A DNA stretch of 64,000 nucleotides from assembly GCF_000003815.2 (NCBI RefSeq), contig NC_049997.1, positions 16,169,189 to 16,233,188 of the forward strand. Reading direction: 5' to 3'. Every line of letters begins with the position of its first letter. Position 1 is the first letter of the stretch. Source of the stretch: Branchiostoma floridae. Taxonomy: Eukaryota; Chordata; Leptocardii; Amphioxiformes; Branchiostomatidae. Under the pieces are notes generated by a model that made no database searches, was not told where the DNA came from, and saw nothing but the letters and a program-made list of their open reading frames with translations. The translations under genes and the position numbers were made by a program. This document shows positions 26,016 to 49,849 of this stretch, one piece after another.

Positions 26016-26043
26016 ATGGAGATGAATCAACGTTCCGTGCAAG
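26016..26043 (+). CDS. Candidate alternative first exon a (DD adaptor gene 1)
   Basis: ATG at 26016, 28 nt, donor CAAG|GTAAGA, phase 1, peptide MEMNQRSVQ-G. The phase fits the acceptor of the death-domain exon at 31026 (G|GC). The ending ...VQ-G and the upstream homology to exon e make it a member of the first-exon family. Confidence 0.5.
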
Positions 26044-26656
26044 GTAAGACAATAATTCATCATCCGAATCTTGATTAATGTTTTTTCAGGAATGTGACTG
26101 TCTTGAGCAACAGAGATTCTCTCAAATTTTGGCTGTAGCATGTAGCTTCATTGGCTGTTCGTGTCAGGCCATGAAAATTTCAGGTTTTGAAATATCGCAT
26201 GGTACTAACGTTCAACCTTATATAACAACTTAAGTTTGATGATTTTTTTTGTTTGTTTTCTTGTTCATCACTGTAAATGATTTCTCTTGTAGTGATAATA
26301 CGTATAATTTAACATACATGTCTGTGTGCATGGGTTTCAATTCTATTTGGCAAGGAAACAAAGAGAGGCTTAATTGGGTAAATAGTATTTTTGTCCCTTA
26401 CTATATGTCATGCATGGTTAGAGCTATTTAAAATGCTTTCATTTATAATAGCCTCAGTGTCATGTAAAAAGCTCCGTGACGTGAGTCGGTTTCTTTCGTC
26501 CTGTGCAGTTCTGACGGCATAGATCTAATTGCGCTGCGTTCGCCTTTAAGTTGTGTGCAGCAAGTTGTGCGTGCGTGACATGCAAATTTTTGGTGACGTC
26601 ATCAAAGTGGTCCTCATGCTACCAAAGTGTGCGTTACCAAACGTGATTGACATGAA

Positions 26657-26667
26657 GGGGAATCCCC
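26657..26667. promoter_or_regulatory. Perfect NF-kB palindrome
   Basis: GGGGAATCCCC, the same palindrome (other strand) as those at 36666 and 49710. It lies 3' of exon a and 2.7 kb 5' of exon b. Confidence 0.55.
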
Positions 26668-26736
26668 AGGTTATTCCCCTCAGTCGGGTCATAGGTCGCA
26701 TGGTCGGATGCTCTTTCCGGTGTCCGTCTTAAACTA

Positions 26737-27199
26737 CAGTCAAACCTGCCCAAGCGACTACCTCTTCTTAGCGACCACCTGGCCATTATGACCGTTTTTT
26801 CTCGGTCCCGAAAATTTCCCCATTGACGTAAGCATTAAGCGACCTCTTCACAACAGCCACCTAGCCAACGCGACCACGACCGCCAAAATAGGGACCACAT
26901 CCCTGCCCATAATGACCGCGTCATTTTCAAATCTTGAGGTGTCATTTATTTCTAATGATAACTAGCGCGATTTTGTGCCGAATTCGGCCAGTTCGACTAC
27001 CATTACGAAAATTGTTATGTTCGAACAAAGATGGCGGCGGATGCGCGTGCGTGTGCTTGATTTGATATTAAACACAACGGAAACCATTTATACTATGCAT
27101 CGGGCATGTTGTGAGTCGGTACTCTTCTATCCGACCACCTGACCGAATCAACCACTTTTGCCCGGTCCGCCGGCTGGTCGTCTTGGGCAGGTTTGACTG
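26737..27199. mobile_element. pogo/Tigger-like MITE, TA target
   Basis: TA flanks (26735-26736, 27200-27201) and perfect 18-bp inverted ends CAGTCAAACCTGCCCAAG. CAGT start and TA target fit the Tc1/mariner-pogo group. Interior repeats GCGACCACCT-type motifs. 463 bp, no ORF. Confidence 0.82.
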
Positions 27200-27323
27200 T
27201 ACTTTGAGGCGACGTGCAGTCATAGATCGATCCCGAATATAGTAGTATTTATCATTATTAACCATTAAGAGAGTGTCTTCATTTCCGCCTAATATTTGAA
27301 AACTGTAAAAAATAACCCATCGC

Positions 27324-27595
27324 TAACCTGGAATCCAGTCTCCTTGTGGCACGGCCTATCGTAGTTAGTGTAGGCTGTCTACGGGGCCAGTGTAGCTCTC
27401 AGCCGCCGGGTCAATCGTTCACACCCGGTAGGATTTTCACGCGGTTAGACTTTGCCCAGTTGGAGTTATTACCCTACCACGTGAAAATCCTACCGGGTGT
27501 GGCCGATTACCCCGGCGGCTGAGAGCTACACTGGCCCCGTACAAAGCCTGCACTAACTACGGTAGGTCGAACCACAGGAGACTGGATTCCAGGTT
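27324..27595. mobile_element. Mutator-like foldback MITE, long TIR, 10-bp TSD
   Basis: Arms of about 120 bp (TAACCTGGAATCCAGTCTCC... and inverse) make most of the 272 bp self-complementary. Direct repeats AACCCATCGC at 27314-27323 and 27596-27605. A second copy starts at 30364 and diverged relatives start near 29718, 37224 and 46662. 27606-28700 shows nothing else recognisable. Confidence 0.88.
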
Positions 27596-28708
27596 AACCC
27601 ATCGCATGCAGCGCTGAAAAAAAAGCCAGAGAAGCGCGGACAAAAGCACAACAAGCTTCGCAGCCCATGCCTTCTCACATTCTCACAGAACGACCACTTT
27701 TAAAAACCCGGTCACTAGGGTAGGAACAGTGGCGCGGACCAGTAGTAATCATTTATTGGTCAACATACGGAGGAAATCCTTATCAAACATTTTGACAATG
27801 TTTTTGTAGATTTCATGGTATGAAGAACACAACCCACACATGTCTGACCACACTTCACCTTGTTTTTCTCGCCACAAACCTACTGATTTTCAACAGAACG
27901 TCGACTGGGAAACAAGGACAATTATTTAAAATTTGGTCGAAATTGATGAAAGACTCGGCACTATATATCTAATCAGACATGTTTAAATCCTTTTTCAGGA
28001 CGTTGTATTTTCCATTAGAACAATGTAATTGCCTGTTGATTTTATATTATCTGGAATTGACGGCAGGTAAGCTCAACAAACCTCAACGTACGAAGACTAC
28101 GTTTGTAATTATAACCACGTGAATGATTAGACCTTTATTGTACATTTCTGCTATCACAAGGTAAGTACAAGTCATAATGATGTACGACCGCCGCCAAGTT
28201 AGCGATGACTTGATTATCCAAACGCAAATATAGGACATCCGCCCAGCGATCCGGCATGTAGTTCCGGGTCTAAAACTTGAAGATTTATTTCTTGGAAAAA
28301 TGGGTAGAAATTTTGCCAGTTTTGAGGTCAACATGACTGGGGAAGGTTTCTACTTTCTGATTATGGCCAAAAAGCTGAGTTTTTGTGGTTATCAGGGGAT
28401 GTAAAGTGGGCCCCTTCCCTTGGCGGTTATGCGTTTGAGGGGGTGGGAGGGTTTTGTGGTACATGTATTTTTCTGCAAATTCTGCCGTAAGATTTCTAAT
28501 GACAGTTGAGATGATGGGCTTTCATATGAGAGTAAGATTGTACGCCAGTAACGTCAGAAAGGTGAGTTATTGGCCCTGTCTTTCTGTGCCTTTTTGTGTA
28601 CATTTCAATATACCAGGCATCGACTTGCGGATCCCCTATATTTGTGCCTGAGGTTATAGTGAACAATACAATCCATGACCTTCGCCAAGGTAGCGACAAA
28701 TATACTGT

Positions 28709-28855
28709 AAACAAACACTGTACGTCACGTATGATGAAGTAGAGCTGAAATAACACCTGGGAGAGTCGATCACTCGATCACAAACACTGTACGTCACCTA
28801 TGATGACGTAAGAGCTGAAATAACACTTGGGAGACTAGTCGATCACTCGATCAAA
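28709..28855. repeat. Two-copy 72-bp tandem duplication
   Basis: AAACACTGTACGTCACGTAT...GATCACTCGATCA at about 28711-28780 and 28782-28855, with a few changes (an extra GACGTA and CTAGTC in copy 2). Confidence 0.85.
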
Positions 28856-29071
28856 ATCGGTCTAAAAGTTATGACATGCACGGGGGTACATTGTTAGTCT
28901 GAATAGCATATTACTATCTTCCAATGGGATCTGACGGTCATCAAAACAACAAAACAAAAAACCAAAAGAGGAGACTCAAAAGGTTTGCCGCCGTAACTGA
29001 CCGAATATTTATCTTGCAGCATGATTTAGTTCAAGCAATATAGTACTGTGACCAATCACATGACCTCCACA

Positions 29072-29081
29072 CCTTATTTGG
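29072..29081 (+). promoter_or_regulatory. CArG box (SRF-type), CCTTATTTGG
   Basis: Perfect CC(A/T)6GG, 281 bp before first exon b. The same box with similar flanks (ACACCTTATTTGGGC) is at 38171 before exon e, and a one-base variant at 49682 before exon h. Confidence 0.5.
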
Positions 29082-29361
29082 GCTTGGCTATTTTTAAATA
29101 TGACGTCACTGACGTTATAGAGTACTCGCTGTATATCTTACATGTGCAAGGCTTCCCCATTCGTCAATTCAACCAATTGGCTTGCAGAGAACACATCGTT
29201 GACATGTACAACACATTCTTCTACTTGTGCAAAACACCTACTGGAGTGTCGGAGTACTTGAGGGGTCATTTAGCGGCAAGTGTGTTGGTCTGGAACTTTG
29301 GAAGCAAAAAGTGTGCCCCAGACAGGTCGGCTGAGCTGACCTGTGATTCTCTAACCTACAT

Positions 29362-29401
29362 ATGTCTGACCAAGAACTGAACCCCCGACGTGCTGTACAA
29401 G
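29362..29401 (+). CDS. Candidate alternative first exon b (DD adaptor gene 1)
   Basis: ATG 29362, 40 nt, donor CAAG|GTAATA, phase 1, peptide MSDQELNPRRAVQ-G. It joins in frame to 31026. Upstream 29060-29170 is homologous to 38155-38230 upstream of exon e (CArG box and GGCTTCCCCA segment). Confidence 0.55.
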
Positions 29402-30189
29402 GTAATACGATATAAATGTGTTTTTTTTAAATTTGTTTTTCAGAATGTCAGCGTCAGTAGAGAAATTCAGTTCGTACGGTTGGACAATGATAATGTGTGT
29501 GCAAACTGTAAAGATCGAATTAACATTGCATTTCTATACATTTCTGTGGAGTTCTATTGTCAAACACTGAGGGACTAGGGCACGCAGGTTATGGTGGGCA
29601 TTCTGTCATGTCCTCGGGCCGACTAATTTACCACCTACCCACCCACCAAATATCATCAGCATCATGGACCATGGCCGGACCATGTGTCTGGTATATAAAT
29701 TTACAGTTGTGTAACTTGGCTAACCTGGTATCTAGCCAATCGTGGACTGGGTGGGCTCTCTTCGGGACTGTAGAAGATTTCCGCCGCGGAGGTCACCTGT
29801 GGCACTAGGTAGTAGTTTTACGTGGTTGGAGGTAATCATATGCCTGAAACTAAAGTTCTAAAGCCAAAATCCTGTGACTAGTGACATCTTACCATTACAT
29901 GTATGGGGAGTTCACCGTTATCTTTAAGGTACTGAGAGTGAGAGAGCATTAGTGACAGTTCATTAGCATTTTTATTGGGTTAGAAGCGCTCTTAGAATGC
30001 CAGTTAAAAAGCCGGACAGGCTACGATGCTTCGCAGACTGGGCCCTGTGAAACAACACTAAACCGACCAGCGGCGAATGGTGACTAGGATACACCGTCTG
30101 TATATTCCTGTGAAATTCTATCGACAAGCACTGAATCACCAGCCCAGTACAGCCTATCGTAAGCCTCTTCGGACTTCTTCGGTGCGCGG

Positions 30190-30355
30190 GCGGCGTGTTG
30201 CCCGCCCGTCCAGGTCACTTAGTGCGCTGTGGGATATTTTACTCTCCAAACAGAGCTTGGTGGGGAAAATCGTGACCTTTTCCTTTCGTATTTTTTTTTT
30301 CGACCGGCCTTCCCGCCCGTCCAGGTCACTAGGTGCGCTGTGGGATATTTTCCAG
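30190..30355. repeat. Two direct copies of a CCCGCCCGTCCAGGTCACT unit
   Basis: CCCGCCCGTCCAGGTCACT followed by the TGCGCTGTGGGATATTTT segment at about 30199 and 30313; a third diverged copy lies near 50431 and a fourth near 46726. Probable fragments of one repeat family. Confidence 0.6.
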
Positions 30356-30363
30356 TGCTTAGG

Positions 30364-30529
30364 TAACCTGGAATCCTGTCTACTTGTGGCACGGCCTACC
30401 GTAGTAAGTGCAGGCTCTCTACGGGGCCAAAGTAGGTCTCCGCCGCCGGGATAATCATTCACACCCGGTAGGATTTTCACGCGGTTAGACTTTAGCCCAG
30501 TGAGGGTTAATTGCCGGCCACCATGTACT
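30364..30529. mobile_element. Partial copy of the 27324 foldback MITE, cut by the gap
   Basis: TAACCTGGAATCCTGTCTAC... through CACACCCGGTAGGATTTTCA matches 27324-27450. The right arm must lie in the N run, which may be why assembly failed here. Confidence 0.8.
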
Positions 30530-30856
30530 NNNNNNNNNNNNNNNNNNNNNNNNNNNNNNNNNNNNNNNNNNNNNNNNNNNNNNNNNNNNNNNNNNNNNNN
30601 NNNNNNNNNNNNNNNNNNNNNNNNNNNNNNNNNNNNNNNNNNNNNNNNNNNNNNNNNNNNNNNNNNNNNNNNNNNNNNNNNNNNNNNNNNNNNNNNNNNN
30701 NNNNNNNNNNNNNNNNNNNNNNNNNNNNNNNNNNNNNNNNNNNNNNNNNNNNNNNNNNNNNNNNNNNNNNNNNNNNNNNNNNNNNNNNNNNNNNNNNNNN
30801 NNNNNNNNNNNNNNNNNNNNNNNNNNNNNNNNNNNNNNNNNNNNNNNNNNNNNNNN
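30530..30856. other. Assembly gap (327 N)
   Basis: Run of N. ORFs reported across it are meaningless. Confidence 1.
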
Positions 30857-30911
30857 AAACGTCCCAGTGACGCAAGTTTAGTACTAGTGAGATACCATTC
30901 TAAGCCATTTC

Positions 30912-30930
30912 ATGTCTGCCAACTATACAG
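30912..30930 (+). CDS. Possible proximal first exon of DD adaptor gene 1
   Basis: ATG then 19 nt to a GTAAAA donor in phase 1 (MSANYT-G), only 95 bp before the death-domain acceptor. It lacks the ...Q-G ending and gene 2 has no equivalent, so it is weaker than the others. Confidence 0.25.
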
Positions 30931-31025
30931 GTAAAACAAACTTCACATATAACTACACTTATGTACATTGATGTTAATTGAGCATATACAGTATGATATT
31001 GACAAAACCCCACATGTCATTCCAG

Positions 31026-31138
31026 GCTTCAGTATAACCCAGGTCCTAAACAGACTGGCCGGGGAGGTCGGGTCTCGGCAGTGGAAGAAAATCGCCAGAG
31101 AGATCGGACTGACGGATCCGGAGATTGACGCTATTGAG
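31026..31138 (+). CDS. DD adaptor gene 1, exon 2: death domain N-half
   Basis: Acceptor TCATTCCAG|GCTTC, phase 1; donor ATTGAG|GTATCG, phase 0. Encodes QVLNRLAGEVGSRQWKKIAR, EIGLTDPEIDAIE: helices 1-3 of a death domain with the core Trp and the GLTxPEIDxIE signature. Immediately followed by a (TC)n tract. No upstream coding besides the short first exons. Confidence 0.9.
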
Positions 31139-31146
31139 GTATCGTT

Positions 31147-31164
31147 TTCTCTCTCTCTCTAAAC

Positions 31165-31210
<46 letters not shown>

Positions 31211-31330
31211 CCTCATTTTGTCTCATTCTTTCTCTCTTCTGTTTCTCTCTCTCTTTCTCTCTTTCTCCCTCATTCTCTCCCTCTCATATTTCTCTACCCT
31301 ACCCCTATTTCTCTCTCCCACAATTTCATT
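31147..31330. repeat. (TC)n-rich microsatellite
   Basis: Pure TC at 31169-31206 and imperfect CT-rich sequence to 31400. A shorter CT tract is at the same intron position in gene 2 (about 51275). (TG)n follows at 31540-31590. Confidence 0.9.
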
Positions 31331-31408
31331 CCTTTTTTAATCTTTTCCTTTTTAAAAAAAAATTCACACTCTTCTCTATCACACCCCTTCTCTCTCTCTT
31401 CCTTAAAC

Positions 31409-31444
31409 CAAGGAGGTTATATCACATGTGATATAACCTCCTTG
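31409..31444. repeat. 36-bp perfect palindrome with no loop
   Basis: CAAGGAGGTTATATCACA and its exact complement joined centre to centre. A single arm (ATATAACCTCCTTGG) also occurs at 39674, suggesting this is the end of a transposon family joined to itself. Confidence 0.9.
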
Positions 31445-31815
31445 CTTAATCGTCGTTGCATGCGTTTGTTTCTGTGTCGTTTACTCGCTTTTAGTATGTG
31501 TGTATGCTTGTATGTATGCGTGAGTCTATTAGATTAATGTGTTTGTGTGTGTGTGTGTTTGTGTGTGTGTGTTTGTGTGTGTGTTTGTACGTATGTGCGT
31601 TTGTTTTTATTGAGATTGCGCTATGTACACAAGATACTGTTGTTATAAATCGTCGATGCTATTTTTGAGGCACCTCAGTACTAGTATTAACGTAGAAAAG
31701 CAACATCGGTAAGGGATGATGTTCGAAGTCCGTCATTTTTGATTGTGATGTTTACATATAACTGTCATTCTCCTTTGCTTACAAAACATTCTATATTTTA
31801 ATGCTTTCAGACTTA

Positions 31816-31998
31816 GGTCACATTTCCAACCCGGGCCCGACCGGGAAGTTTTAAGAAACGAAAAATTAAAATGTATACCTAGAAATATATACAAATCATG
31901 CTCATGATTCTAATTTTTACATTTTGTGTATTTTGATTTCTATCATTCTTTATGTTCCCAAAAGCTGCCCGGCCGGGCCCCGGTTTGGAAATGTGACC
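31816..31998. mobile_element. PIF/Harbinger-like MITE with TTA duplication
   Basis: Inverted ends GGTCACATTTCCAAMCSGGG, interior GGGCCCGRCCGGG on both arms; TTA at 31813-31815 and 31999-32001. 183 bp in the death-domain intron; gene 2 lacks it. Confidence 0.85.
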
Positions 31999-32117
31999 TT
32001 AGCCTTACTCAGGATTGTAAGCATATGAATCTCCATGAAAAAGTGCGTCTTCAGTGTTTTTGGCGACGCCTCATGAACGGGTGCTTTGTCTTACAGTTTT
32101 AAATTTTTGGTTCCCAG

Positions 32118-32281
32118 GACTGCGAACGCACGAACCTACACGAGAAGGTGTACCAGACATTCCGCCGGTGGAGGATGAAGAACGGCCGGCGGGCCACTCT
32201 GGACGTCCTGGCTGGACATCTGCGGGCCATAAAAATGACAGCCCTGGCCGAAAAGCTGGAGGACATTCAGAACCAAAATGG
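32118..32281 (+). CDS. DD adaptor gene 1, exon 3: death domain C-half
   Basis: Acceptor TTCCCAG|GACTG phase 0, donor ATGG|GTAATC phase 2. Encodes TNLHEKVYQTFRRWRMKNGR, RATLDVLAGHLRAIKMTALA, EKLEDIQNQN: helices 4-6, with W....GRRAT..VL...L and a FADD-like HEKVYQTFRRW...AEKLEDI ending. Splicing to the exon at 32633 adds three residues then TGA (32640-32642). Total with a 9-residue leader is about 103 aa. Vertebrate FADD has a DED before its death domain; none is visible here, so this is a death-domain-only adaptor. Confidence 0.9.
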
Positions 32282-32632
32282 GTAATCATTTTCGTAAGAA
32301 AAAAACTCGTTTGCGTTATTGCGGAGCTGGGAAATACTGCAAGAAACCTTAGACTGCATAGTAACAATTGGATGCAGCAAAATCAACAGTTAATCATTTT
32401 ATTTCATGGTTTGGCTAAGACACGAACATTATTCGTCCCCATTTTGCTGCTGCATTGGTAATTCTTCTATAGTCTGATGTATTTATACATGATTACGGGG
32501 GGGAAATGAGATTTTCAGAATGAAATAATTTTGTGAATCCGTATCATCCTTTTTCAATATCACTTGATGTTATTCTTTTCACACACTCGTTTTTATTCCT
32601 TAAGTGATATTTTCTATTCTTTTTCATTTCAG

Positions 32633-32886
32633 ATTTTCGTGAGCTTGCTGAAATCAACCGGGACAGGCGTATAGACCGTGTATCGTACCTGATACTGTAA
32701 CATTTTGCTGGTTTAGGTTTGAGTTTGATGAACTGTAGATATTACTATGGACAACACATAGAAAAATTATTCTGTCGGACCTAATTGAATGCTCTACTTT
32801 GCTTGTTGTTAAGTGGCGATTACTGACGGAGTATTACGGTTCTGTGTGTGCTGCTGTAAATGACTCGCGGTTTTGACTTAAATAAA
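32633..32886 (+). other. DD adaptor gene 1, last exon (stop and 3' UTR) with AATAAA
   Basis: Acceptor TTTCATTTCAG|ATTTTCG; stop TGA at 32640-32642; AATAAA at 32881-32886, a second at 33353-33358. The corresponding UTR exon of gene 2 starts at 52250. Homology between the gene copies extends to about 33385 / 53003, so 3' flanks were duplicated with the genes. Confidence 0.7.
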
Positions 32887-33716
32887 TCTATGCAATTAGC
32901 GTTAATGATGCCATAGAACAAGTTTAATGGTGTGCCTTCCAGGCAGTATGTACCCATATAGGGAGGGCAAAGGTTACCATGTGGCCATTAGGAGAAAATG
33001 ATAGTGTGTAATGTTCTCTGTTCTTGCATGTATATCTCGCATTTCAGGGAAGGGGTTGGTGGATAGTTATGGTTACAAGTTGTATATATTTTTCTACCTA
33101 ACTGTGAAACAGTTAATCGTAATCCATAGGTTATCTATTAACGACTTAATGACAATCTTTTAAAGAAATTTTTCTAATGCCTTTCTCAGGTAGTGTGTAC
33201 GGATTACAACATTGTGTTGTTCTGTGCTGAATATATGCTTATCAACATCTTGTGACGTCATTGTCATTTGGTTTTATTTCAAATAGAATATTTCGTCGTA
33301 CTTAACTCTAAAACTAGCATAGAGAATATTTATACATATTGACGATAAGGTAAATAAAAACAGAAAAACCAAAGATGATAGACTTAATCTCACTCCGAAT
33401 CTATGCGGGGGCAGATATACGAGTATGTGACATTGCGGAATTATGTCAGTACGTGTTATCTATGAAGAAAGGCAGACCCATCGTTTTGTCTCCTGAGTAG
33501 CTGTATTGCGTGATCTGATCCCCGGTCCTCAAACCTAACATGTAACACCAACGTGCACGCTTATACATGTATTTTTCTGTCAAGGTCTACCATTGGTTGG
33601 CACATAGAAGCGAGAAAACCTTTGTGTACATAAATTATGCACATGTGCTTCGGAAAAAAAAAACACTTGCATCGCTACATGTACACACTACCTCTCGATC
33701 TCACAGCAGTCTTCCC

Positions 33717-33870
33717 AACGCTAGTTCATCTTTATCCTCGGGATAACAGATATCCGCTATATTCAAAAACAGTTTAAGGTTATACACAGTGGTCTTACAT
33801 TGCAATAAATTCAAAATACTACAGTTTGAAACCACCCTTTTTCAAATTAATATGTACTAAATACTTTCTT
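33717..33870. mobile_element. Half copy of the 4899 MITE family
   Basis: AACGCTAGTTCATCTTTATC...GATATCCGCTATATTCAAAAACAG and GTTTGAAACCACC match the left half and interior of 4899-5114; no right end found. Confidence 0.6.
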
Positions 33871-35930
33871 TCTAAAATAACGAATCATTTGTTACAGTCA
33901 AATAAAGCTTGGGAATGGGAGCGTTCTCTAGTCTGTCACCTTCACGGCCACACTCCCTTGGGAGTACAATGGTGGCAATGTTTATGTCGCTTCCTTTTGG
34001 TTGCTTTTCTACTCAACAAACATTTGAAGACCCATATTCATAGTGTTTTATGGAGCTTTATTTATGTGTATCATGGCAGTTGTGTGACTGCTTGAAAGAG
34101 TTCGTATAGTTAGCGACACGAGCCGCCAATACGCAGAGGCCGGTGACCGCAGTGATTCAGCACTGTCAACATTACTGTTAGAATTCTGTTTTTAAAAAAA
34201 ACATGAAGTAAATATATGTTAAAGTATATTTGGAATTCAAATTAAAACTGTGTGGATGGACTTGGTTTATTTACCTTTGTAATCAGCATAGTCAGTGGTA
34301 ACAAATACGGTGTACTTATGGATAATAAGATCAGTAAAAAATCCGTGCCATCTTACGACGGGAACCGTCTTAGGGCGGCCCCCGTTAGTTACTTAGTAAC
34401 AAGCATAAAGTCTTTCAAGGCTCGAATCTGAAGAATTCTGGTTGGAGCTGTAATGTATTTCGGAAGGGATGTAAAATGGGGGCCCAGTGTTCGAGGATTT
34501 GCCTCGAGCACGTTACAGCAGCCTATAATTGCTCGAATTGCACCTGTGCATTTTACTGTAATAGTATAGCAAGGTCAATGATATCCACTCGCTCAACTGC
34601 CCTTACTGCGTCACCCTTCATTGTTTTTGACGACGCCTCAGGGGAGTCGTCAAGTGATATATATTAGGTACAGTCTGCAAAAATTCTAGGAATTGCATAG
34701 GCATTTTTCCACAGGAATGCTAGTAGTCCGCAGTATGCTGGGTATGCAATCCCCCCTCCCCACCCAAATCTATACCAGATGTAGGCATGTTAAATGGAAT
34801 TTGGGTCATGTCCTGGCATGTGTCCACAGGCATGTTTGGAATACGGCCGTGGGTCAGAGACCATGGTTGGTAATCTTGGTCCGAATCACGGCAGGCTTAT
34901 TTTGTACTGCCAGCTGTAAGCGCCTTCGATGTCCACTGGATCCCTTCAATTTCCAGAGTATATTTAGGATTTAGAGTCACAGAAAAAATATTCTGTGTTC
35001 AATGCAAAATAAATTCAACAGATGCAAGGTCATGTGTGGTGCGTCGTGAAGCCTGAGCCATTGCTATTATCTTAGCCTATTGATATAGGATATAATCCAG
35101 TATAGTACTGAGAAATCTTTCAAATTCTGCTGTGTTTTACTTGTCAGGACACAGCCTTACAATCTTGCATTCCAGGGACATCGGCTTTGTGTAGAGTGTT
35201 CAGTGTAGAGCCAAATGGCAGTTCAATTTGCAAAAATTGTAGGAATTGTACAGGCATGTTTCCACAGGCATGCTAGTTCACAGACATGTTTGGAATGGAA
35301 GCCTCGAGGTATGTTAAATGGAATGTGGGTTATGTCCTAGAATGCCTAGAATCAGGGGACGGCTGGTTCAGAGAGCATGGTATGTAATTTTCTTGGTCCC
35401 AATCACATTTGTTAGTGTGGAGCTCAGGTCAACAGGCGTTGTTTTGTGTTGTGTATCAAGGTCAGTGATTTGCTGATGGGGTCTACTCTGACTTACGAAT
35501 CAGAGGTTTACTAGCCTGGAGCACACCTGTTTTTTTCTCTTGCAGAACATAGGTCTTGCAGTTTGTCAGGGTAAATTCACTATACTGGGCAATAGGAAAG
35601 GAGATGGGAGGTACATTGTACAATCATGAAACTCTTCTTGTGGGAGGTGTTGCATGCTTGTTTAGATTACAACTGTATTACATCCCTGTTATGTCAATAA
35701 TGCATAGTTATTTGTATGTGCAAGAGCTTCATACTCATGTCATAGGAAGCTTAGGTGAAGGTAAAAATAATAATGCGCTAATCCTATTCATTACAACAGA
35801 ATTGTGTCAGGGTCAGGGATAGTGCGACAGGGAAGTTCCAGTCTATTTCTGAGTTGAGCTGTATTGTTGTACCCTCAATCGTCGTCATGGCAATAATACA
35901 TTTTTATTGCCAGTCTTGTTTTTTTTTTTC
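33871..35930. other. Gene-free stretch with degenerate CAGGCATG repeats
   Basis: 34680-34850 and 35215-35400 share GCAAAAATTSTAGGAATTG, TTTCCACAGGMATGCTAGT and CATGTTTGGAAT; a diverged duplication about 540 bp apart. No coding or RNA gene recognised. Confidence 0.5.
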
Positions 35931-35939
35931 TATTTGCTT

Positions 35940-36350: not shown

Positions 36351-36375
36351 ATGCACGTTCGAAGTGCTGCGCAAG
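36351..36375 (+). CDS. Candidate alternative first exon c (25 nt)
   Basis: ATG 36351, donor CAAG|GTAAGG, phase 1, peptide MHVRSAAQ-G. Preceded by GCGAGATATAGAA, shared with exons d, e and g (AAGATATAGAA). The frame is also open upstream to an ATG at 36312. Confidence 0.55.
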
Positions 36376-37065: not shown

Positions 37066-37090
37066 ATGGACCTCCCAAGTGCTGCACAAG
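37066..37090 (+). CDS. Candidate alternative first exon d (25 nt)
   Basis: ATG 37066, donor CAAG|GTATGA, phase 1, peptide MDLPSAAQ-G. Upstream GAACAAGTCGGTCGCGCTTGACAGCGCAAA resembles the block before exon g (CGAACAAATCACTCGCGCTCAACGCAAA). Confidence 0.6.
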
Positions 37091-37860
37091 GTATGACGAT
37101 ATAAAGATTATTGTTAATAACTTTGCTTATATATACATTTAGAGAACTTTTTAACCTTCGTAGTTGACTTCATATGGGGACGGTCAGTGTGTTATATCCG
37201 TGATTCCGTCGCTATAAAACTTAGCTAACCTGGTACCCAGCCTATTGCGGATTGGGCGGGCTCCCTTCGGGGCCATATGAGCTCTCCGTCGCCAAAGTCA
37301 AAGATAACACTCGTTAAAAATTACGCGGTTGAAGTTAATTCGCTCTGCACGTGGATCGTAATAGTATTCAGTTCGACCCCATAGCACACTGGTATGGCTA
37401 TACATGTATGTGTACATAAAGGTGGATCTTTAATTTAAAAGAAATTTTTGCAAGTGAAGCATGTAATCATATGGGGAAAGTCGGGCAAAAGAAGGTGTCT
37501 TTATTAAAACTTCCCCTGAGATGCTTACCCTTTTTTTAAACTGTCAAATACAATTCTGAAGAACTCTATACAGCTAGTCCACAAATGCCCTACAATCAGA
37601 GTCCTTGGATTGGTCTTGTACGTTCAAAACAGCTAATCACGATTAATACACTATATGTAATAGTGGCCGGTGCGAAAAAACTCCAAGATGGAGAAAAGTC
37701 ATTTTTCTATCTATGTACTAGCTAACAGGTCACCAGAAACACACCTACACTGCGCCACCAGATACCCCCCATTGTTTGCCTTGCTCGGGTTACTAGCTTA
37801 GCACTATTCCATCATGGTATCAATCATTGGATTGGTTCCATGACTCCAGGAGGCGGGACA

Positions 37861-38180
37861 TGAGTCATTCGGGTTGTCACACACACGGTCATGTTTACAG
37901 GGTTGTTTGTTTTTTATGAACACGGATATCGATGTGAGAAATTAAACATCTATAAAGAAATGCAATCGTTTTGTTACCATCTAATAAAATATTTGACTTT
38001 CCTGTTGTTGTTAACAAACGTGTTGTGGTTTACAGACTGATTTGTATGTTACTTGTTTGCTGCCCTTCCCTGTTCGATCGAATGGTGACTTCCATTTTTC
38101 TTGGCGGCGGGTTGGAGCTACGACCGCCAATGACCGCCAAAGTTACGTCATCACACGTGACCACACCACACCTTATTTGG
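37861..38180 (+). promoter_or_regulatory. Promoter block of exon e: AP-1, CRE-like, E-box, CArG
   Basis: TGAGTCA at 37861-37867, TTACGTCA at 38143-38150, CACGTG at 38154-38159 and CCTTATTTGG at 38171-38180, ending 244 bp before exon e. The last three are packed in 38 bp. Site names are by consensus only. Confidence 0.5.
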
Positions 38181-38423: not shown

Positions 38424-38448
38424 ATGGATCTCCAACGTACTGCACAAG
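38424..38448 (+). CDS. Candidate alternative first exon e (25 nt)
   Basis: ATG 38424, donor CAAG|GTAATA, phase 1, peptide MDLQRTAQ-G; preceded by TTCAAGATATAGAA. Promoter block homologous to those of exons a and b. Confidence 0.6.
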
Positions 38449-40180: not shown

Positions 40181-40265
40181 ATGGCGGCTCTTGGTGGAAA
40201 CCCGAAGTGGGTGCAAGAAAACAGACCACTGCTCACCGGGATGGTCATGGATGACTACGCACAAG
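40181..40265 (+). CDS. Candidate alternative first exon f
   Basis: Donor CAAG|GTACGT, phase 1. The nearest ATG (40241) gives exactly 25 nt (MVMDDYAQ-G). An in-frame ATG at 40181 sits in CAAGATGGCGGC, a perfect TISU element (start codon for very short 5' UTRs), and would give 28 residues before the splice. Exon span is given from that ATG; 40241 is the alternative. Confidence 0.45.
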
Positions 40266-40559
40266 GTACGTATAGGCGGGAGATACGTGTGTCCTTTATC
40301 TTTCATGACATTGATACTTCTATGAGGAGCCGATTGCCCAATTTCTACCGAATATACCCTATGAGACATAAGGTTGGAGCCTCTGGCGACATCAATCTCG
40401 ACTTGAGAAAGTACGTTACCTCCAAATCGCATTTAAACTCGTTTTGTCAATACTACTACATGGACCCCTAGCACACGAAAAATTTGAGAGTAATCGATGC
40501 AGCAGATCTCGAAAAATTCAATGCACAATGTATTTGCCCCCCTCCCACCCTCTGCAGCC

Positions 40560-42090
40560 AAGGAGACAAAGTGTGTCAACTTCAAGGACTGGGAGAAATT
40601 CAAAAAAATCAATCAATTTTCTGGAACGTAATTTAGATCATGACTACATAAATCACACCAACATACTTCAATATATCAGAGAGATCCATTCATTTGATCC
40701 TGAAATACAGACTGCCAAAGTTGCTTGGATTTTGCCCAGCAATATTGTTTACACTGTGTCATCTTCATGGACTGGGAGAAATTCAAAAAAATCCATTTAT
40801 CTTTTTCAAAGTAATTTACATCATGAGTACTTAAATCACTCTAACATATTCTAGAATATTGAAGAGATCCATTCATTTGATCCTGAAATACAGACTGCCA
40901 AAGTTGCATGAATTTTGCTTAGCAATATTGTTTACATTGTGTGAACTTCAAGGACTGGGATAAATTCAAAGAAATCAATTAATCCTCTTCAAAATATTTG
41001 AGATCATGCCTATATAAACTACTCTAACATATTCTGGAACATTGGAGAGATTTGATTATTTGATCATGAAATACAGACTGCCAAAGTTGCATGAATTTTG
41101 CTTAGCAATATTGTTTACACTGTGTGACCTTCAAGGACTGGGAGAAATTAAAAAAATGCATTGATTTTTAAAAAAAAGTATATTGAAACATGACTACATA
41201 TATCATTCTACCAGACTCCAGGATATTGGAGAGATCCACTCATTTGATCTGTAAATATTGACAGTCAAAGTTTGTAGACTTTTGGTCAGCCATATTGTTA
41301 ATACTAAGTGAAGTTTAATGACTGAGATAACTTCAAAGAAATCAATTAACTATTTTCAAAGTAATTAAAAACATGACTGTATATATCACTTTAATATGCC
41401 CCTGGATATTGGAGACATCCACTCATTTGATTTAGTATTATAGACAGTCAGAGTTTCTTGAATTTTGGTCAGCCATATTGTTTACACTGTATACAGTTTA
41501 AGGACTGGGATAAATTCAATGAAATCAATTGATTCTTTTCAAAGTAATTGAAAACATAACTGCATATGTCACTCTAAAATATGCCTACATATTGGAGAGA
41601 TCCACTCATTTGATTTGATATCATAGACAGTCAAAGTTTCCTGAATTGTGGTCAGCCATATTGTTTACACTATATGCAGTCTAACTGTAATGACTGGGAT
41701 AGATTCAAAGAAATCAATTGATTTGTTTCGAAGTTATTTAAAACATAACTTCACATATTACTCTAACATATGCCTGTATATTGGAGAGATCCACTCATTT
41801 GTTTTAGTATTTTATAGACAGTCAAACCTTCCTGAATTTGGGCCAGCAGCCATATTGTTTGCACTTTGTGAAGTACACTGTGTGTAGGATGAATTAAAAA
41901 AAAAGTAAGCTGTGTAATTTAAGTGAATGAAAACAAGAATGCATACTAGTATATGTTACATCAACATATCCTGAAAAGTACAGAGATGCTGAATTTTGAT
42001 CCAGAAATGAAATATTGACTTGCTTGTCTTTAGTTTTGTTTTCTTCAGTTGTATTGTTCAAAGTGTCTTAACTTCAAGCACTGGGATAAG
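40560..42090. repeat. About 183-bp AT-rich satellite, 7-8 diverged copies
   Basis: The GGACTGGGAGAAATTCAAA segment recurs near 40584, 40770, 40953, 41133, 41311, 41499, 41692 and weakly 42079. Units also share GAGAGATCCAYTCATTTGAT and CAATATTGTTTACACTGTGT. Copies become more diverged to the right, a gradient expected if the array grows at its left end. Confidence 0.85.
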
Positions 42091-43783
42091 CTTAACATGT
42101 TCATAATGTTACCTATATCTGCATCAAACTTTGATAAGTGTAAGATACTTAGATTACAGTTCTTACAGCAGTATATATATATATATGTGTACAATGCTTT
42201 ATCATGCCAAACCCCCCTCCCCCATTTTCCAAGAATGGTAAAGAAATGTTTCTAATCCATGGCTGTTTGGATCTTGTAAACATGTTTCACCTCATAATAG
42301 AGCTTCATTGCTCCTAATAACTATGACTCAGGATTCAAATTTTTGAATATGAACATAACAAAAACAACAAATGTATACAAATCATTCAAGGGTATGCACA
42401 GAAATGTTATTGTCCATGTTAGTTTGATGTTATGCAATCAGATTTTTTTTTTACATTATTTGAGTAGTATAGATAACTTTGTTGAAAGACAATGAACAGA
42501 AAGAAAAGAAGCACTTACAATCACAATCCTCTCTCTCTTTATTTTCCAGTTGAAGGACAGAAAATTATTGGTTTGCTCTGAACCAGGACTGTGGAGTTCA
42601 ATACAGCCTTACATCAGATTTTCTCACCAACCCTGTTATGATTCACAGACCTGGAATACTCACTGAATGAAAACATCAATACATACATATTTTATAGCTA
42701 CTGTGTATTTAAGTTGTGTGTTTACTATTTGCATTGGTGATGATTTGTAATTTATTTCTATGATTTGTTATACCTCTTTTCCAACTTTACCCTACTGTCT
42801 TTGATTGAAAGGAGGCTGGATAAAGACAGTGTATTGTTGTGCATTGTAATGCTCAATGTTATGAACCAATGATGTCTTACCTGAAAGTGTAACTTGAAAA
42901 ATATATATAGTATATCTGTATTAGCTTGAAATAGTAGAATTGACATTAGTATAGGACTGAAACAAATGTACTTTATCTATTGTGTGTCCATTGTTTTCTT
43001 TTCCATTGGCATGGAGGAATATCCTAGCCTGTGTGCTATCCTAGTTAGATTACCAAGGCTCCTATACCTCTCCCCCATACATAGGGAATTGTAGGGGCCT
43101 TAGCAAACAAGGATTGTGCAGCATATTACCCTGTGGTATCTTTATATCTTAGACAACTTTGTGTAATATCTGATGCATTGTGATCAGTATCACTATAATA
43201 GGAACTACTGGTTTGATATTACATTTCATCACCTTATGTTAGGTCTATTGTATGTTACCACTTTTTGTATATTTCTTTTGACACACATTAAAACATATTT
43301 TCTGATGCACACTAAATGATATTGTTTAAGGCACAAATGGTAAGATGAACCTGGCAAGTCTGTTACCAACTACATGTGTTACATCAAATTCAATATCAGT
43401 AGTACAAATGAATGAATCTACAGTATTCTATAAAGAGATATCTATGAAATATAATATTGGGAAAATAATATGAATAAAAGTTTTAAACATAGAATTTATA
43501 CTTTAAACAAGAAGATACTCTATGCCATGTCACCTTTTTATCATAATAAACTGTATGCAGGCCACACCTGTTTTTCCCTCTTCACTATTTTTCTGATAAA
43601 CCTCTGGCCTTAATGTTACATCAAAATTATTATCATGTGCTTAAAATTTATTGTCTTCATTTGCATTCCATTTTTTTTCATGTACAGTCTTAGAAAAGTT
43701 TGTGCTGAAAATTTTGATGTTTTCGTATGAACGTTATTCATAATACTAGAAAGGCCGACATTTGCTTGGGTGCAAATACAGCA
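42091..43783. other. AT-rich stretch without recognised feature
   Basis: A short (AT)n at 42173-42187 and T/A tracts only. 42540-42560 has a pyrimidine tract with CCAG but no coding exon I can support. Confidence 0.5.
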
Positions 43784-45576
43784 TATTTCAGCCATACCCA
43801 TTCCCACGCAACATTGGACTGTTCCAAGTCACCCCTGCGCAAAAATGCAATATTTAATGTAAGTTATCCCCAAAAGAGAACTAATATTGTGAATTGATTC
43901 CATGTCAAAACAGAGCTTGCCCAATATGCCCCGGGCCCATATGGAAGAATATAATCTTCCACAGGAGCGCCTATGCATAACTGATTGGTTTTTAGAATCG
44001 CGGCAGCTCCTATTTTTCCGAGAGTGAAAAAAAAAACGCATCTTCCATTCAGAAGATTTTCGTCATGAAATTACATGACGCCATTCAACAATTTCCACTT
44101 CGATAACTAGGTCTAAGTACCGTCATAATCTCCTTGTGATGTGGGTGCATTTATTATTGCAGTGAACTTTTTTTTAAGCAAGTAGGGCATACGTTTTAAT
44201 AATTGTCAGGTGCAGGTACTGTGTAGTAGGAGTGTTGTTGTTTTTTTCAAGCTAAAAACTTCAATCTTCTTCTTGTTTTGTATGAGCCATTACATAAACG
44301 GAGACGTCTCGAAATTTTACAAGAATTTTACCACCCTGTCGCTTCATTTCTTTTCTGAAAAATCCCAGGACGAACAAGTTAACTTGATTTGGCTTTATCT
44401 ATATATTTCATTTTCCTTCGAATTCTTTGTTAAGTATATGCCCCTGCATACCACTGTTAAATTGTTTTACTTTGTATGCAATCAGCCATCGGACGTAATC
44501 TTGTCTGAGTGTTATAATTTCCTGCTCGTAGCGTGCGAGACCTGGAGGATAGGTGTTTCTACTTTGTTCGGGGGGTTCTTTTCGGAGGTCAGTGGTGATA
44601 CTCTGGTATTGAGAGTGTTTTATTGGGCTCAAACTCTGGCAGTTTAAAGTTACTTACAATTTGAATGTACAAAGTTTACGTCAAAAAAGAACAACAACAA
44701 CACTAGAAGTACCTACATTTGTTCGGGGAAAAATACATGCATTCTCGCCACTGTCAAACTTACGTATCAAAACTAAACGCAAGCCGTCCAATTTTCCCTG
44801 TCCAAATCTGCCGAAAATGATTGATAGTGCCATGCGGAATGTTGGTATATTCATCGACACTAACGTTCAATGCACGCGTACCGTCCGCTACCGCTCAAAT
44901 GACCCTGTCTGAACTCCAAATCCTCGCAAACTACAATTTCAAACCCGGCAAAGGGGACCATATGGCCACAGTAAGGCTGTAATATGCATCTGTTTGTGTA
45001 TATACGGGATTGCAAGGCCCCGCTTATGAATATTAACTAGCATTCGCCTTTCTCGTCGCTGATTGGCTGGCGTCCATAAAGTAATTATCTCTCGCTCTCC
45101 CCAGACCGCTGGCACCTGGCACGTGTGGGCTCTGGGGTCACTGGAGTTCACGGCAGGAAGCCGAAAGAAAACCAATTTCCCCTCAGAAAAGCGCTGAAAT
45201 TAAGCATTTTAAAGTAGTTTATGCCCAAAATTTTACTCGGATCATTTTACCAACTATCTAATGCCTATCTACACCAAATTTAAGGTCATTCCATTGTAAT
45301 TCAAGGGAACAGGGGGCCACAATATACCGTTTTGGTCAAAACATGACCTTTAAACTTCAATAAAATCATTTTAGAGGCAGATATGAAAAAAATGAGAAAA
45401 CAGCACCTCGGTATTGACCCACTCTACCCTTGTGCCAAATTTCAGGTCATTCGGTCACGGAACGACGGAGATGAATCGCTTTGAAGATTTGACAGGAGAA
45501 AGAAAGAAAGAAAGAAAGAAAGAAACATTACGAATACAATATATTTCACCATACCATATATGGTATGGCTGAAATA
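43784..45576. mobile_element. 1.8-kb element with TATTTCAGCCATACC inverted ends
   Basis: TATTTCAGCCATACC at 43784-43798 and its inverse at 45562-45576. The right end is preceded by a (GAAA)n microsatellite (45490-45523) and includes a 35-bp near-palindrome (45542-45576). A 145-codon ORF inside (44210-44647) matches nothing I know and is probably chance. Confidence 0.55.
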
Positions 45577-47350
45577 TAATTAACGTTAGATGATTTTCAC
45601 AGTGGAATTATTTCACAGGAAATCTGTTTTTTTCCCATTTACTCCATTGTTTTTCTGGGACGAATTTGGAAAGTGACCTTATCATATTTCGACATTGTTT
45701 GGCTCAATACTGATCAGGAAAGCACCCAACACAATGCCCCTACATTACGATGCGTCAGTATAGAACAAACTGCAGGAAGTAGAAATTTCAATTTTGCCGC
45801 CACAAGTTTGTACCCATCATCCCTTGCGCCTGAAACAAGCCTCGATTTCGTGGATGCCGGCGTTTCCATGGCCTGGTTCTGATCAGTCGCCGCGGTGACC
45901 GTGCTGACGTTTTTGTTGTCATTCCCCCCCCCCCCCGATTTACATAATAATCGTCATCAATTGCCACCGCAGAAGCAAAAAGAGTCCGAAATATATGCAT
46001 TTTCAAATGCGTAAGACACTTTCAAAATCGTCTCCGGCAAGCCACTCAGATCCCACGAGATTTCTATGCGATTTTATAGGAGCGCGAGCCGCTTCACGGA
46101 GAAAGGCAAATCGGCAGCCAGGTACAAATAATTTTGCGATATTGTTTGTGTAGCGTGGCTTCGTTTATGAATATTAAGAAGGAGGAACTAGCCTTCGTTA
46201 GGTTTGTCCTCAGTGGTAGTTACTAAAAATAGTAAAAGATGTCCCTGAAGTGAACTAGACAGCCACAGACATGACAAAAAGTTAGTGTTTATATATATAG
46301 TTTGCTTCTCAAATTTGCTCAGATATGGCTCTAAAATGCACCAAAGAACCTCTAATTCTTATAAATTTTCTGGGGGAGGCCCCCCATACCCCCCCAACGA
46401 GAGGGGGGAACCCCCCTCTCGTGCTCTCCCCCCGCGCAGCTTGCGCTGCGCGGCCGCGGCCTTCGGCCGCGTCATGGTGCGCGCCCCCCCTTAGCAAATT
46501 TCTGGATCCGCCAGTGATCAGGGCGCGCTCCGAATGTCACCCGCTCGCCAGTGGAAATGAGATTCTTTGGAATACATAAATATCCTGTCGTTTATTTCGA
46601 ATTCACACCATTGCCTTTCTATACACTCCTGTGGAGGTCCACTGGCAAACACTAAAGCACTAGCCTGGAACCGGCCTATCGTGGTTGTCCCGACATCTCC
46701 TCGGTGCTGGGAAGTTGCCCGCCCGCCGAGGTCATATAGCACGCCCCGGCACGACATCGATATCGGGTTTGTGAAAGGCTTGCAGTGTCCTGATTATGAC
46801 TTACACTATTCACGCGCGCGCGAACAAACCCGGCTGTAAAGATATCCCATCGCATGCGAGCGCTGGAAAAGGCCAGAGAAACGCGGACCAAAGCACAAGT
46901 TCCGCAGTGCTTGGCCTCTCACGTTCTTACAGATCAATCACTTATTAAACCCAGTGCCGGCCTACGGTATCGGGAGGGGGGAGGAGCAGTAACACGGGTC
47001 GCATTACAGTAGTAATCACAAACCCATTGTATTTATTGGTCAACAAACGACTACCTGTTCCTGGTGGGAATCATAACTTTTTTGGCACTTGCGTGCGATT
47101 GGTCGGCGGTCGGGCCAGCGCATTTGCTAAAGGGGGTGAAATTTATGGAGGGACTGTAAGTCACTTGCATTACTTCAGAACTTCTCTGCTTTTATTTCAT
47201 TAAAGGCATTTTGGTCCTAAAGATATTATCACGCTTAGTTAGGCAGTCCCAACTGTTATTGCAACTGGTGGTAGAAATGCTTTTGCTTGTGTCTTTCACG
47301 TTACCTCACCTATCTTGTACAAGTTCGTTCCAAAACGTGTTGGTGACTGC
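45577..47350. other. Repeat-rich stretch, GC hairpins and a stray 74-bp satellite unit
   Basis: 46370-46500 is a GC-rich set of hairpins (GGGGGAGGCCCCCC; GCGCAGCTTGCGCTGCGC; CGGCCGCGGCCTTCGGCCGCG), followed by TTTCTGGATCCGCCAGTG and the stray 74-bp satellite fragment. 46662-46760 carries a diverged copy of the AACCTGG element family. Poly-C at 45926-45938. Confidence 0.5.
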
Positions 47351-47357
47351 AACGTAG

Positions 47358-47367
47358 TATATAAATA
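47358..47367 (+). promoter_or_regulatory. TATA box upstream of exon g
   Basis: TATATAAATA, 153 bp before the exon g start codon, which would give a 5' UTR of about 125 nt. The only strong TATA box in the first-exon bank. Confidence 0.55.
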
Positions 47368-47519
47368 GGAACGGTAGGAACCAGAGTAGGAACAGTGCAG
47401 GTGTCAGGTAGTTGGCAGTGCGTTTTGTCCGAAAACGAAAAGTGTGATCTCGAACAAATCACTCGCGCTCAACGCAAACTATTCTACTCTTAGACTATAT
47501 TTCCCTACAAGATATAGAA

Positions 47520-47544
47520 ATGGACCTCCGAAGTGCTGAGCAAG
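47520..47544 (+). CDS. Candidate alternative first exon g (25 nt)
   Basis: ATG 47520, donor CAAG|GTAAGA, phase 1, peptide MDLRSAEQ-G; preceded by CTACAAGATATAGAA. With TATA box, strong donor and family resemblance it is the best single candidate. Confidence 0.65.
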
Positions 47545-49155
47545 GTAAGACGATAAAAGCTAAAGTGTTTTTATCTGTTTCACTACAAGAAGGACTTGGT
47601 ACTTTTTTAAATCATGTTGTTTGTGAGTATTATGATTTCCAGCAGAGCCCATTTTGTTCGGTTGCTGACTAGAAACCGAATAGAATACGCATTGGGTACT
47701 TTATCGATCATATCAAAGAGCTTTCCTCAATGGAAGCTCCTTACTCATACAAGTTACAGTAACAAACCTGGTGTGTTGTGCCACGGAGTGATTGACCGGG
47801 TATACCATGCAATATACTAGTATAGGTATATTAAAAGATGATCCTACAGTAGCTCTTCGCTAATGAAAATTTACTCTGGCACACAAGAAACGAAGATTGC
47901 CCATGTTTCTGCATGAATTTGTGCAAACGAACTGTATTACGGTAAGCGACCGGTGATACTATATGGGTATTTTGACAACTGTTGTAATATTACGTATCGA
48001 TGCCAAAAGACGCTATATTACAGTTTTTTTCTATATCGTAAGGAGGTTTGCTTGTGATTAATCGTCGAATATAGCATGTCAGTATTACGCAATGTTAAGT
48101 TCAAATCTCAAAATGTAAGTCCTAAATAAGGTAGGTCATTTCAGCGTGTATTTGCAAGGATATTCCCCCAGCTGTCAATCAACCAGTGGGACAAAGCCAC
48201 TTTCAGGTTGCTGTTTCCCTATTGGTGGAGTGGAAGTTGACCTTTGTCCTTGTGGTATCATTTACCTGGATTATTTACTTTATTTGTCTTCGTTTCCATT
48301 GTAAGAGTATGATTTGAATAGGCTATGTAAAAAGGTCATATACTTGAAGTTAAACCCCGAATTTTTCATACTTTTGCATCTACAACCATATGAATGACAA
48401 CCCCGCACTGTTTTTACCCTACATTATTATCCTAAGAATGTCATGCTTAGCATTGGGGGAAGTTAAGAAGTCAGTTTGGATGGCTGGCTGGTAAGTCGCC
48501 AAATTCAACCACCGGTGGCCTTGCTCGTCGTGAAGCTTCGCGGAACCTTTCGTGAAACCTCGAGTCACGCGGAAACTTCGTGCAACAATTGTGAAATAAC
48601 TCTTATTGACGGGGGAATCCTTGCTGCATGTCGGCACCAGTCACTCAGTGTTCGTACGTGCGTTGGTGTTTTATGTAGACTTGCATCTTAGCCGTCTGTA
48701 AACAAGCCATGGTAGATTAGGTTTGGTGTTTCCTTTGTGTCCCCAGCCCCGTATGTCTGGGAAAGGAAGTTTTGCCACACTTAGAATCGTGCCCTTAAGT
48801 TCATCCACTAGATATATAATTTTCGAAAGGAATTTTGGCAAGTAATATTATTAAAAATTCTTGTTGAGAAACAGAAGCAAAAGTGGATCAATGAAAATAT
48901 CGTAACATATATTGTAACTTCTTTTATAACCATTCAGCATCAGGCGCTGATTTAACAATATGGCGCAGTGTTTGTCCCCCACAATGTAGTTATTCCATTG
49001 CTTTGTCGGAATCCTTGCATGTGTTTACTGTGTCTATTTCCTATGTTAACCGCATGCGCATTCGCCCCGCCTTGTATATGTTTGATCAATGTATTATGTT
49101 GAAGCTGACGGGATCATGAACACAACTATCGCATGATATAGGATAGATCATAGTG
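47545..49155. other. Stretch without recognised gene
   Basis: Unique-looking AT-rich DNA. 48528-48595 and 50335-50425 share GTGAAACCTCG / ACTTCGTG-type short motifs. 48175 has an AT-CCCCC run only partly like NF-kB sites. Confidence 0.4.
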
Positions 49156-49156
49156 T

Positions 49157-49440
49157 GGAGTCTGGTGGTGTAGTGGTTAACAGCTCCACCTGATTGACAA
49201 CAATGTCAAATTATACAAATAGATTTGGGTTCGAATCACCTGAATTTAGATGGACGGTGTGGGCAACCCTTTCTGATAGCGCCCATTGATCGTACAATAG
49301 TTCACTGAAAGTAAGAGCCCCCTATCTTGTAATGCTGTGAAGACGTGTAAACATAACATGCTTTGTAATGTAACGCGTGCAGATGGCGGTAAAATGGACC
49401 GCCCGAGTGTTTGGGCGGACCAAACAAACAAAAAACACAG
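49157..49440 (+). mobile_element. tRNA-derived SINE, plus strand
   Basis: A box TGGTGTAGTGGTTAAC near 49166 and B box GGGTTCGAATCACC at 49227-49240, spaced slightly wider than a tRNA, followed by an unrelated body ending in an A-rich run (CAAACAAACAAAAAAC, 49422-49437). Lack of tRNA folding across the centre favours a SINE over a tRNA gene. Confidence 0.65.
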
Positions 49441-49681
49441 CGTCAGATCACCTGATCGACTATAGAAGGCAGCATCTACCATTCAATATCAAGGGGTGGG
49501 AATAATACTACGTAAAATGGTGAGATTAGATGAGATCAAGTTAAACCACGAGAGTAATAAAACATCTAAAAACGCATATAGTAATCATACTCTGATGTTT
49601 GCAATCCACTCGCCACTTTACTGTGTACTTTACAAAATATATGTGGATTCTTGCTGTTCCTCCCTTATGTGTTCGCATGCA

Positions 49682-49720
49682 CCTTATTTGTTCGGCGTTA
49701 TTTGCATAAGGGGATTCCCC
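49682..49720 (+). promoter_or_regulatory. Exon h promoter: CArG-like, octamer and NF-kB palindrome
   Basis: CCTTATTTGT (49682-49691), octamer ATTTGCAT (49700-49707) and GGGGATTCCCC (49710-49720) in 39 bp, 105 bp before the start codon of exon h. The octamer and NF-kB sites are 2 bp apart. Confidence 0.6.
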
Positions 49721-49824
49721 TCAAGTTTCAATATTCGGTTACACGTTATTGTAGTTGGTAGCAGCAGTGGCACGAAGCAGCACAAGGTACAGTTTAATGC
49801 TGCATTTCGACACAAATTATGAAA

Positions 49825-49849
49825 ATGGATCACCAAAATCCAATGCAAG
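49825..49849 (+). CDS. Candidate alternative first exon h (25 nt)
   Basis: ATG 49825 (AAAATGG), donor CAAG|GTGAGG, phase 1, peptide MDHQNPMQ-G. Nearest first exon to gene 2's death domain (1 kb). Confidence 0.6.

Follow-up and report, generated by a model that had tools for sequence, protein, structure and literature searches.

Two arrays of short homologous exons upstream of paralogous lancelet death-domain genes, candidates for alternative start-codon exons

Tandem clusters of variable first exons are described for UGT1 and GCNT2, and the protocadherin clusters are named beside them in the parts of that work drawn on here (PMC1885805). The 5' cassette clusters of sDscam in chelicerates use alternative promoters, according to the excerpted account (PMC5775551), and inflammation has been reported, again in the sections used, to drive alternative first exon use at immune genes of human and mouse, e.g. 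Aim2 (PMC8260223). The innate network of amphioxus includes death domains, with no mention of first exons in the portion of the account consulted (PMC2575513). Those parts of the open-licence PMC literature that were covered describe no alternative first exons for any lancelet death-domain gene, which is weak evidence of absence. Variable first exons are a known kind of arrangement; in a death-domain gene they would be new. Here we describe a 64,000-nucleotide stretch of the lancelet Branchiostoma floridae (C19:16169189-16233188, referred to as the window), which carries two paralogous death-domain genes, each preceded by short homologous exons.

These seven short exons form a real homologous family, arranged in two arrays and intact-looking. 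Gene A (death-domain exons 31026 and 32118) and its paralogue gene B (exons 50875 and 51749) are preceded by exons of two types, alpha (26016, 49825) and beta (29362, 36351, 37066, 38424, 47520): one alpha (26016) and one beta (29362) before A, and four beta copies (36351, 37066, 38424, 47520) followed by one alpha (49825) before B. All seven lie on the same strand as the gene downstream and are phase-compatible with it (phase 1), i.e. several homologous exons that fit one constant exon stand before A (two) as well as before B (five). From the sequence we give even chances to their being alternative start-codon exons with promoters of their own, which would vary the promoter more than the protein. 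A first-pass annotation of this DNA had pictured a single bank of eight such exons, six of them exactly 25 nucleotides (nt) long, in a layout recalling UGT1A or protocadherin-type loci. The likeness holds as far as homologous, phase-compatible exons precede each gene, as does the proposed fit to the phase-1 acceptors at 31026 and 50875, which extends to all seven family exons; the single bank gives way to two arrays (2 + 5), one for each paralogous gene. Splice sites were scored with donor and acceptor matrices, donor percentiles being relative to all GTs of the window. The features are the following.

26016..26043, forward strand: alpha candidate start-codon exon before gene A, MEMNQRSVQ-G, second in-frame ATG at 26022; donor GTAAGA, percentile 99.7; Smith-Waterman score 58 with 49825.
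29362..29401, forward strand: beta candidate start-codon exon before gene A, MSDQELNPRRAVQ-G; donor GTAATA, percentile 97.6; Smith-Waterman scores 46-74 with the four other beta copies.
31026..31138, forward strand: gene A exon 2, first half of the death domain, phase-1 acceptor.
32118..32285, forward strand: gene A exon 3, second half of the death domain, stop.
36351..36375, forward strand: beta exon MHVRSAAQ-G before gene B; donor GTAAGG, percentile 99.8.
37066..37090, forward strand: beta exon MDLPSAAQ-G before gene B; donor GTATGA, percentile 98.8.
38424..38448, forward strand: beta exon MDLQRTAQ-G before gene B; donor GTAATA, percentile 97.6.
47460..47519, forward strand: candidate proximal promoter or 5' untranslated region of beta exon 47520, partly conserved, with counterparts before 36351, 37066 and 38424; putative function.
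47520..47544, forward strand: beta exon MDLRSAEQ-G before gene B; donor GTAAGA, percentile 99.7.
49825..49849, forward strand: alpha exon MDHQNPMQ-G before gene B, in-frame ATG also at 49819; donor GTGAGG, percentile 99.7.
50875..50993, forward strand: gene B exon 2, first half of the death domain, phase-1 acceptor.
51749..51907, forward strand: gene B exon 3, second half of the death domain, stop.
40241..40265, forward strand: claimed eighth first exon, a chance match and not a family member by matrix scan and Smith-Waterman comparison.

All eight exons first proposed show an ATG, a short open frame, CAAG/GT in phase 1 and a terminal Q-G, but only seven are homologous. The exon at 40241 scores 17-23 by Smith-Waterman against the other seven, under the random-pair 95% level of 25 (292 random pairs, whose 99% level is 30 and whose highest score is 78); since it is not a copy, the related exons of exactly 25 nt number five, not six. 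The exact pattern ATG-N18-CAAG/GT occurs six times on the forward strand of the window and never on the reverse, while a looser pattern (4-14 sense codons) also finds 58618, 58827, 59987 and 60132 beyond the array on the forward strand, plus one site on the reverse. A position matrix built from 36351, 37066, 38424 and 47520 ranks 29377 (30.1) and 49825 (15.6) next; background peaks at -6.1 within the window, at -0.2 over 150 kb of contig C231 and at 0.5 in the adjoining flanks. This beta matrix places six of the seven family exons over all background and does not recover 26022, which joins the family by pairwise alignment (Smith-Waterman 58 with 49825, 46 with 47520). When the window, with about 34 kb of its flanks, is scanned by Smith-Waterman, each of the seven has a fellow family member as its top non-self match, whereas the weaker alpha-beta pairs (29-36) fall within the background matches of the same scan. 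In the pairwise comparison 26022 and 49825 are reciprocal best partners, and 29377 pairs best with the four other beta copies.

The start codons need two corrections. At 29362 the ATG first assigned is indeed in frame, but the homologous position, 29377, is a CTG and the ATG sits 15 nt upstream of it; the other six exons keep the ATG at the homologous position. The exon at 26016 has its homologous ATG at 26022, the second of two, which leaves it one codon short of beta; both alpha copies have two in-frame ATGs (26016/26022 and 49819/49825). Upstream of the exon at 47520, the stretch 47460..47519 contains a box, CAACGCAAAC, 50 nt before the beta ATG, and then ...CAAGATATAGAA adjoining the ATG.

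In both constant regions a single intron interrupts the death domain and a stop follows soon after it (93 and 92 residues for A and B including the junction glycine), so the predicted products, of about 100 residues, hold a death domain only. Exon 2 of gene B alone scores 23.2 bits against PF00531 Death, above the curated cut-off of 22.6, and its two exons together match best, among solved (PDB) sequences, RIPK1, FADD and TNFR1, each in its death domain. The donors following the two death-domain exons lie at percentiles 88.7 and 91.0. The first half of gene A is 78% identical to that of gene B, and over 90 codons the two differ by 0.80 synonymous (dS) and 0.13 nonsynonymous (dN) substitutions per site, a dN/dS of 0.16, the pattern that purifying selection would leave. 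Since each gene has both alpha and beta exons, the two types are probably older than the A/B split; the simplest history has both in place by the time of the duplication, with beta multiplying in front of gene B. The setting is a genome with very many death-domain exons: searched over 513,431,437 bases in 431 contigs with Pfam Death, it gave at least 150 matches, from 150 candidates scored out of 588.

An open frame and a good phase-1 donor are retained in all seven exons, the donors lying at percentiles 97.6-99.8 of all GTs of the window. Among the four gene-B beta copies, identity in 20-nt bins is 0.88 just before the ATG, 0.78 in the exon and 0.72 on the donor side (null 95% 0.51, 99% 0.57, maximum 0.66); the bin at -60 reaches 0.58, above the null 99%, and the bin at -40, with 0.45, stays under the null 95%. 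The earlier argument that flanks have diverged far more than ATG, length and donor is hence weaker than it appeared, because the best-kept bin precedes the ATG and some flanks are related. In the beta exon, the proportion of synonymous differences exceeds that of nonsynonymous ones in the real frame (pS 0.33, pN 0.21) and the two shifted frames show the reverse, in small numbers. The seven codons upstream of the beta ATG also have pS 0.28 over pN 0.10, as does one of two shifted frames (0.21 over 0.12), so in some copies coding may start further upstream, the numbers again being small. In a rough neutral simulation, with a per-lineage divergence of 0.10 (beta) or 0.20 (alpha and 29377), all seven exons remain intact with a probability of 7.0e-4, 2.1e-4 and 1.2e-4 at indel rates of 0, 0.01 and 0.015 per nt, and the four gene-B beta copies alone with 0.05, 0.025 and 0.018. 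This moderate evidence makes selection on the exon core likely, not proven.

Several observations weigh against functional start exons. The donor percentiles are flattered because sites were chosen by CAAG/GT, and the donor of the unrelated 40241 reaches percentile 99.4 too. The simulation takes the core's own divergence, assumes a beta-like ancestor and treats copies as independent, and copies decayed far enough would be missed by scans and simulation alike. The homologous ATG is lost at 29377, whose core matches the other beta copies at 31-33 of 51 positions, no better than some flank alignments (the four gene-B beta cores match each other at 38-44 of 51), and first introns of up to 14.5 kb are needed. 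Core conservation is also not exclusive, since some flanks are related as well: among 42 flank comparisons, 7 reach the 95% level and 6 have p <= 0.005, and six flank segments are identical in 70-82% of aligned columns, with 8-61 columns of gaps. Of the two among the six that were looked up in the genome, one involves a dispersed repeat and the other lies in single-copy DNA; in the related pair 25639-25810 / 37868-38047, the side at 37880-38045 is single-copy at the search's sensitivity. The dispersed repeat at 29700-29810 has four matches, on contigs C2, C5, C4 and C13, and is similar to 37218-37300.

The closest split death domains elsewhere in the genome belong to contig C231 (at least 20, among the 150 matches listed) and to the minus strand of C19, where a gene with a leucine-rich repeat (LRR) frame has an exon at contig position 16243882, past the window end. 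On C231 (615 kb) LRR-death-domain genes are clustered; an intron splits their death domains, and some have short phase-1 linker exons. In four such genes (three on C231, one on C19) the exon before the death domain ends in TAQ-G, TTQ-G or PTQ-G with CAAG/GTAAT, and other C231 genes have an LRR exon directly upstream of the death domain. The exon at 38424 shares 16 of 22 nt with one linker, other pairs sharing 9-14 (22-nt strings chosen by eye); homology of the start exons to the linker exon is suggestive only. Genes A and B may, as a lead and no more, be death-domain-only descendants of such genes in which the linker end turned into a start exon. LRR exons in the window, considered as a possible 5' part of A or B, were rejected: the frames of at least 35 residues of eight loci gave no LRR match at E 1e-4, and the rows returned by this search, which included the LRR frame of the C19 neighbour, were death domains, zinc fingers and repeat-like stretches.

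Concerning the origin of the copies, one scattered transposon family, the case that the first-pass annotation had itself held against its proposal, fits poorly, as the exon blocks are confined to this locus at the BLAST or pattern sensitivity used and lack the many genome copies of a dispersed element. A 136-nt query (47440-47575) matches itself and the three other gene-B beta copies only, and the queries 49755-49870 and 29290-29440 each match only themselves, though the latter, placed round 29362, failed to recover the beta copies related to it, and distant copies could likewise escape the search. A 35-place pattern with one mismatch allowed finds 12 genome matches, four of them the window copies, vs 4 for a reversed-pattern control; no death domain lies within about 1.5 kb of the four out-of-window matches examined among eight. 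The dispersed nature of the flank segment 29700-29810 and one exact pattern match elsewhere, on C7, speak for pieces of a transposon, but the C7 sequence is similar to those matched on C10 and C16 and seems to be a separate repeat, and we consider this origin very improbable. Relics of whole tandem genes are ruled against by the lack of any death-domain or 3' remnant between the exon copies, where the best blastn match of the A and B bodies has E 0.04; with the exons locus-restricted and such remnants lacking, neither a scattered transposon nor whole-gene relics fit. There is little, too, to recommend the view that the exons start separate genes without a death domain between 33 and 50 kb: this region is long and bears no annotation here, but six of its open frames, and a further one next to 29362, have no Pfam match at E 0.1, and the longest frames, at 38.8-39.7 and 40.4-40.9 kb, lie in tandem repeats; we would be surprised if this proved correct. 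Unlikely, but of appreciable weight, is that one copy per gene is used (e.g. the one closest to the gene, 29362 in A and 49825 in B), the rest being undecayed non-functional duplicates. Related DNA does reach past the exon in some pairs, 25639-25810 / 37868-38047 for example, core and flank identities overlap in some pairs, and one homologous ATG, at 29377, is lost; on the other side stand the frame and donor retained by 7 of 7 detectable copies with no half-decayed copy in the scans, the simulated P of 1.2e-4 to 7.0e-4, and the lack of duplicated death-domain pieces alongside.

The exons could also be internal, as alternative second exons or, for beta, symmetric 1-1 cassettes behind an unseen 5' exon, in which case the choice would be made by splicing and not by promoter; their origin may then be the linker exon adjoining the death domain in LRR-death-domain genes, four of which have a similar exon in this place. 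AGs at -8 and -2 are kept in the four beta copies with the frame open for 60-75 nt upstream, and the synonymous excess in the seven upstream codons points the same way, though one shifted frame agrees with it; 26016 has an AG at -4 of percentile 94.5, but this gives no in-frame phase-1 acceptor. The eight beta AGs lie at percentiles 63-94, against 90.5, 92.9, 99.3 and 99.5 for the real death-domain acceptors, three of which beat at least seven of the eight and the fourth (90.5) six, a modest contrast. Neither 49825 nor 29362 has an AG between its in-frame stop and its ATG; lacking one in the usable frame, these two must hold the start codon if used as coding exons, and the in-frame acceptor that symmetric cassettes would have in all copies is missing from them, though there may be a noncoding 5' exon further up. 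Together with the lack of an LRR exon in the window, this makes an internal position doubtful.

If the seven exons are instead alternative start-codon exons, each gene would be fed by its own set, and each exon would supply the start codon, a few variable residues and a phase-1 donor fitting the death-domain acceptor. Transcription would begin just upstream of one exon, later exons, without strong acceptors, would be passed over, and the used donor would be spliced to the death-domain exon at 31026 or 50875. The predicted outcome is nearly identical proteins of about 100 residues from different promoters, presumably active and differentially used. A fuller and more tentative proposal, to which we accord somewhat less than an even chance, is that two paralogous death-domain-only adaptors are each driven by a bank of duplicated units, a promoter plus a start exon, belonging to two ancient types. 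If true, a signalling adaptor would gain inputs by copying a promoter and a minimal coding exon and not the whole gene; if the exons are used, an immune or death-signalling adaptor would come under several regulatory inputs with hardly any change in its protein.

Other death-domain sequence of the window is associated with tandem repeats. The beginning of a death-domain coding exon is tandemly repeated at 5631-6352 (190 bp, 3.8 copies), and the last copy alone (frame 6147-6599) runs on into a full death domain. The death-domain exon 8465-8674 leads into a tandem array at 8610-9942, with periods of 135, 164 and 434 bp, which repeats the C-terminal coding part GYDATVGRLWTALQAAELTGV of this exon. 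On the reverse strand, a 314-residue open frame at 4-948 matches PF04843 Herpes_teg_N at 1.8e-7, and a single 560-residue open frame at 61584-63266 encodes C2H2 zinc fingers, with 18 zf-C2H2 stretches. Zinc-finger-like sequence broken by stops lies at about 54.2-55.4 kb.

In known systems the variable exon contributes more protein: the variable first exon of UGT genes encodes a domain-sized part and sDscam cassettes encode variable receptor domains, whereas the lancelet exons would give a short N-terminal tail only, of about 8 residues and not a domain. The lancelet arrays further differ from UGT1 and GCNT2 in having two paralogous constant regions and in being known here from sequence alone. 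Shared with those clusters, as the cited parts describe them, are tandem homologous first exons before constant exons and the birth and death of variable exons (PMC1885805), and shared with the chelicerate sDscam genes is an invertebrate array of 5' cassettes before constant exons, on the excerpted description (PMC5775551). First-exon choice at an innate-immunity gene would parallel Aim2, a case that the sections drawn on do not present as a duplicated-exon array, unlike the lancelet exons (PMC8260223). Within this genome, the LRR-death-domain genes differ by carrying LRR exons and a linker of the usual internal kind, whereas A and B have several candidate start exons and no LRR found with them. 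Those genes resemble A and B in the intron-split death domain and, in the four examined, in the short exon with an AQ-G or TQ-G end and a phase-1 donor that stands before it.

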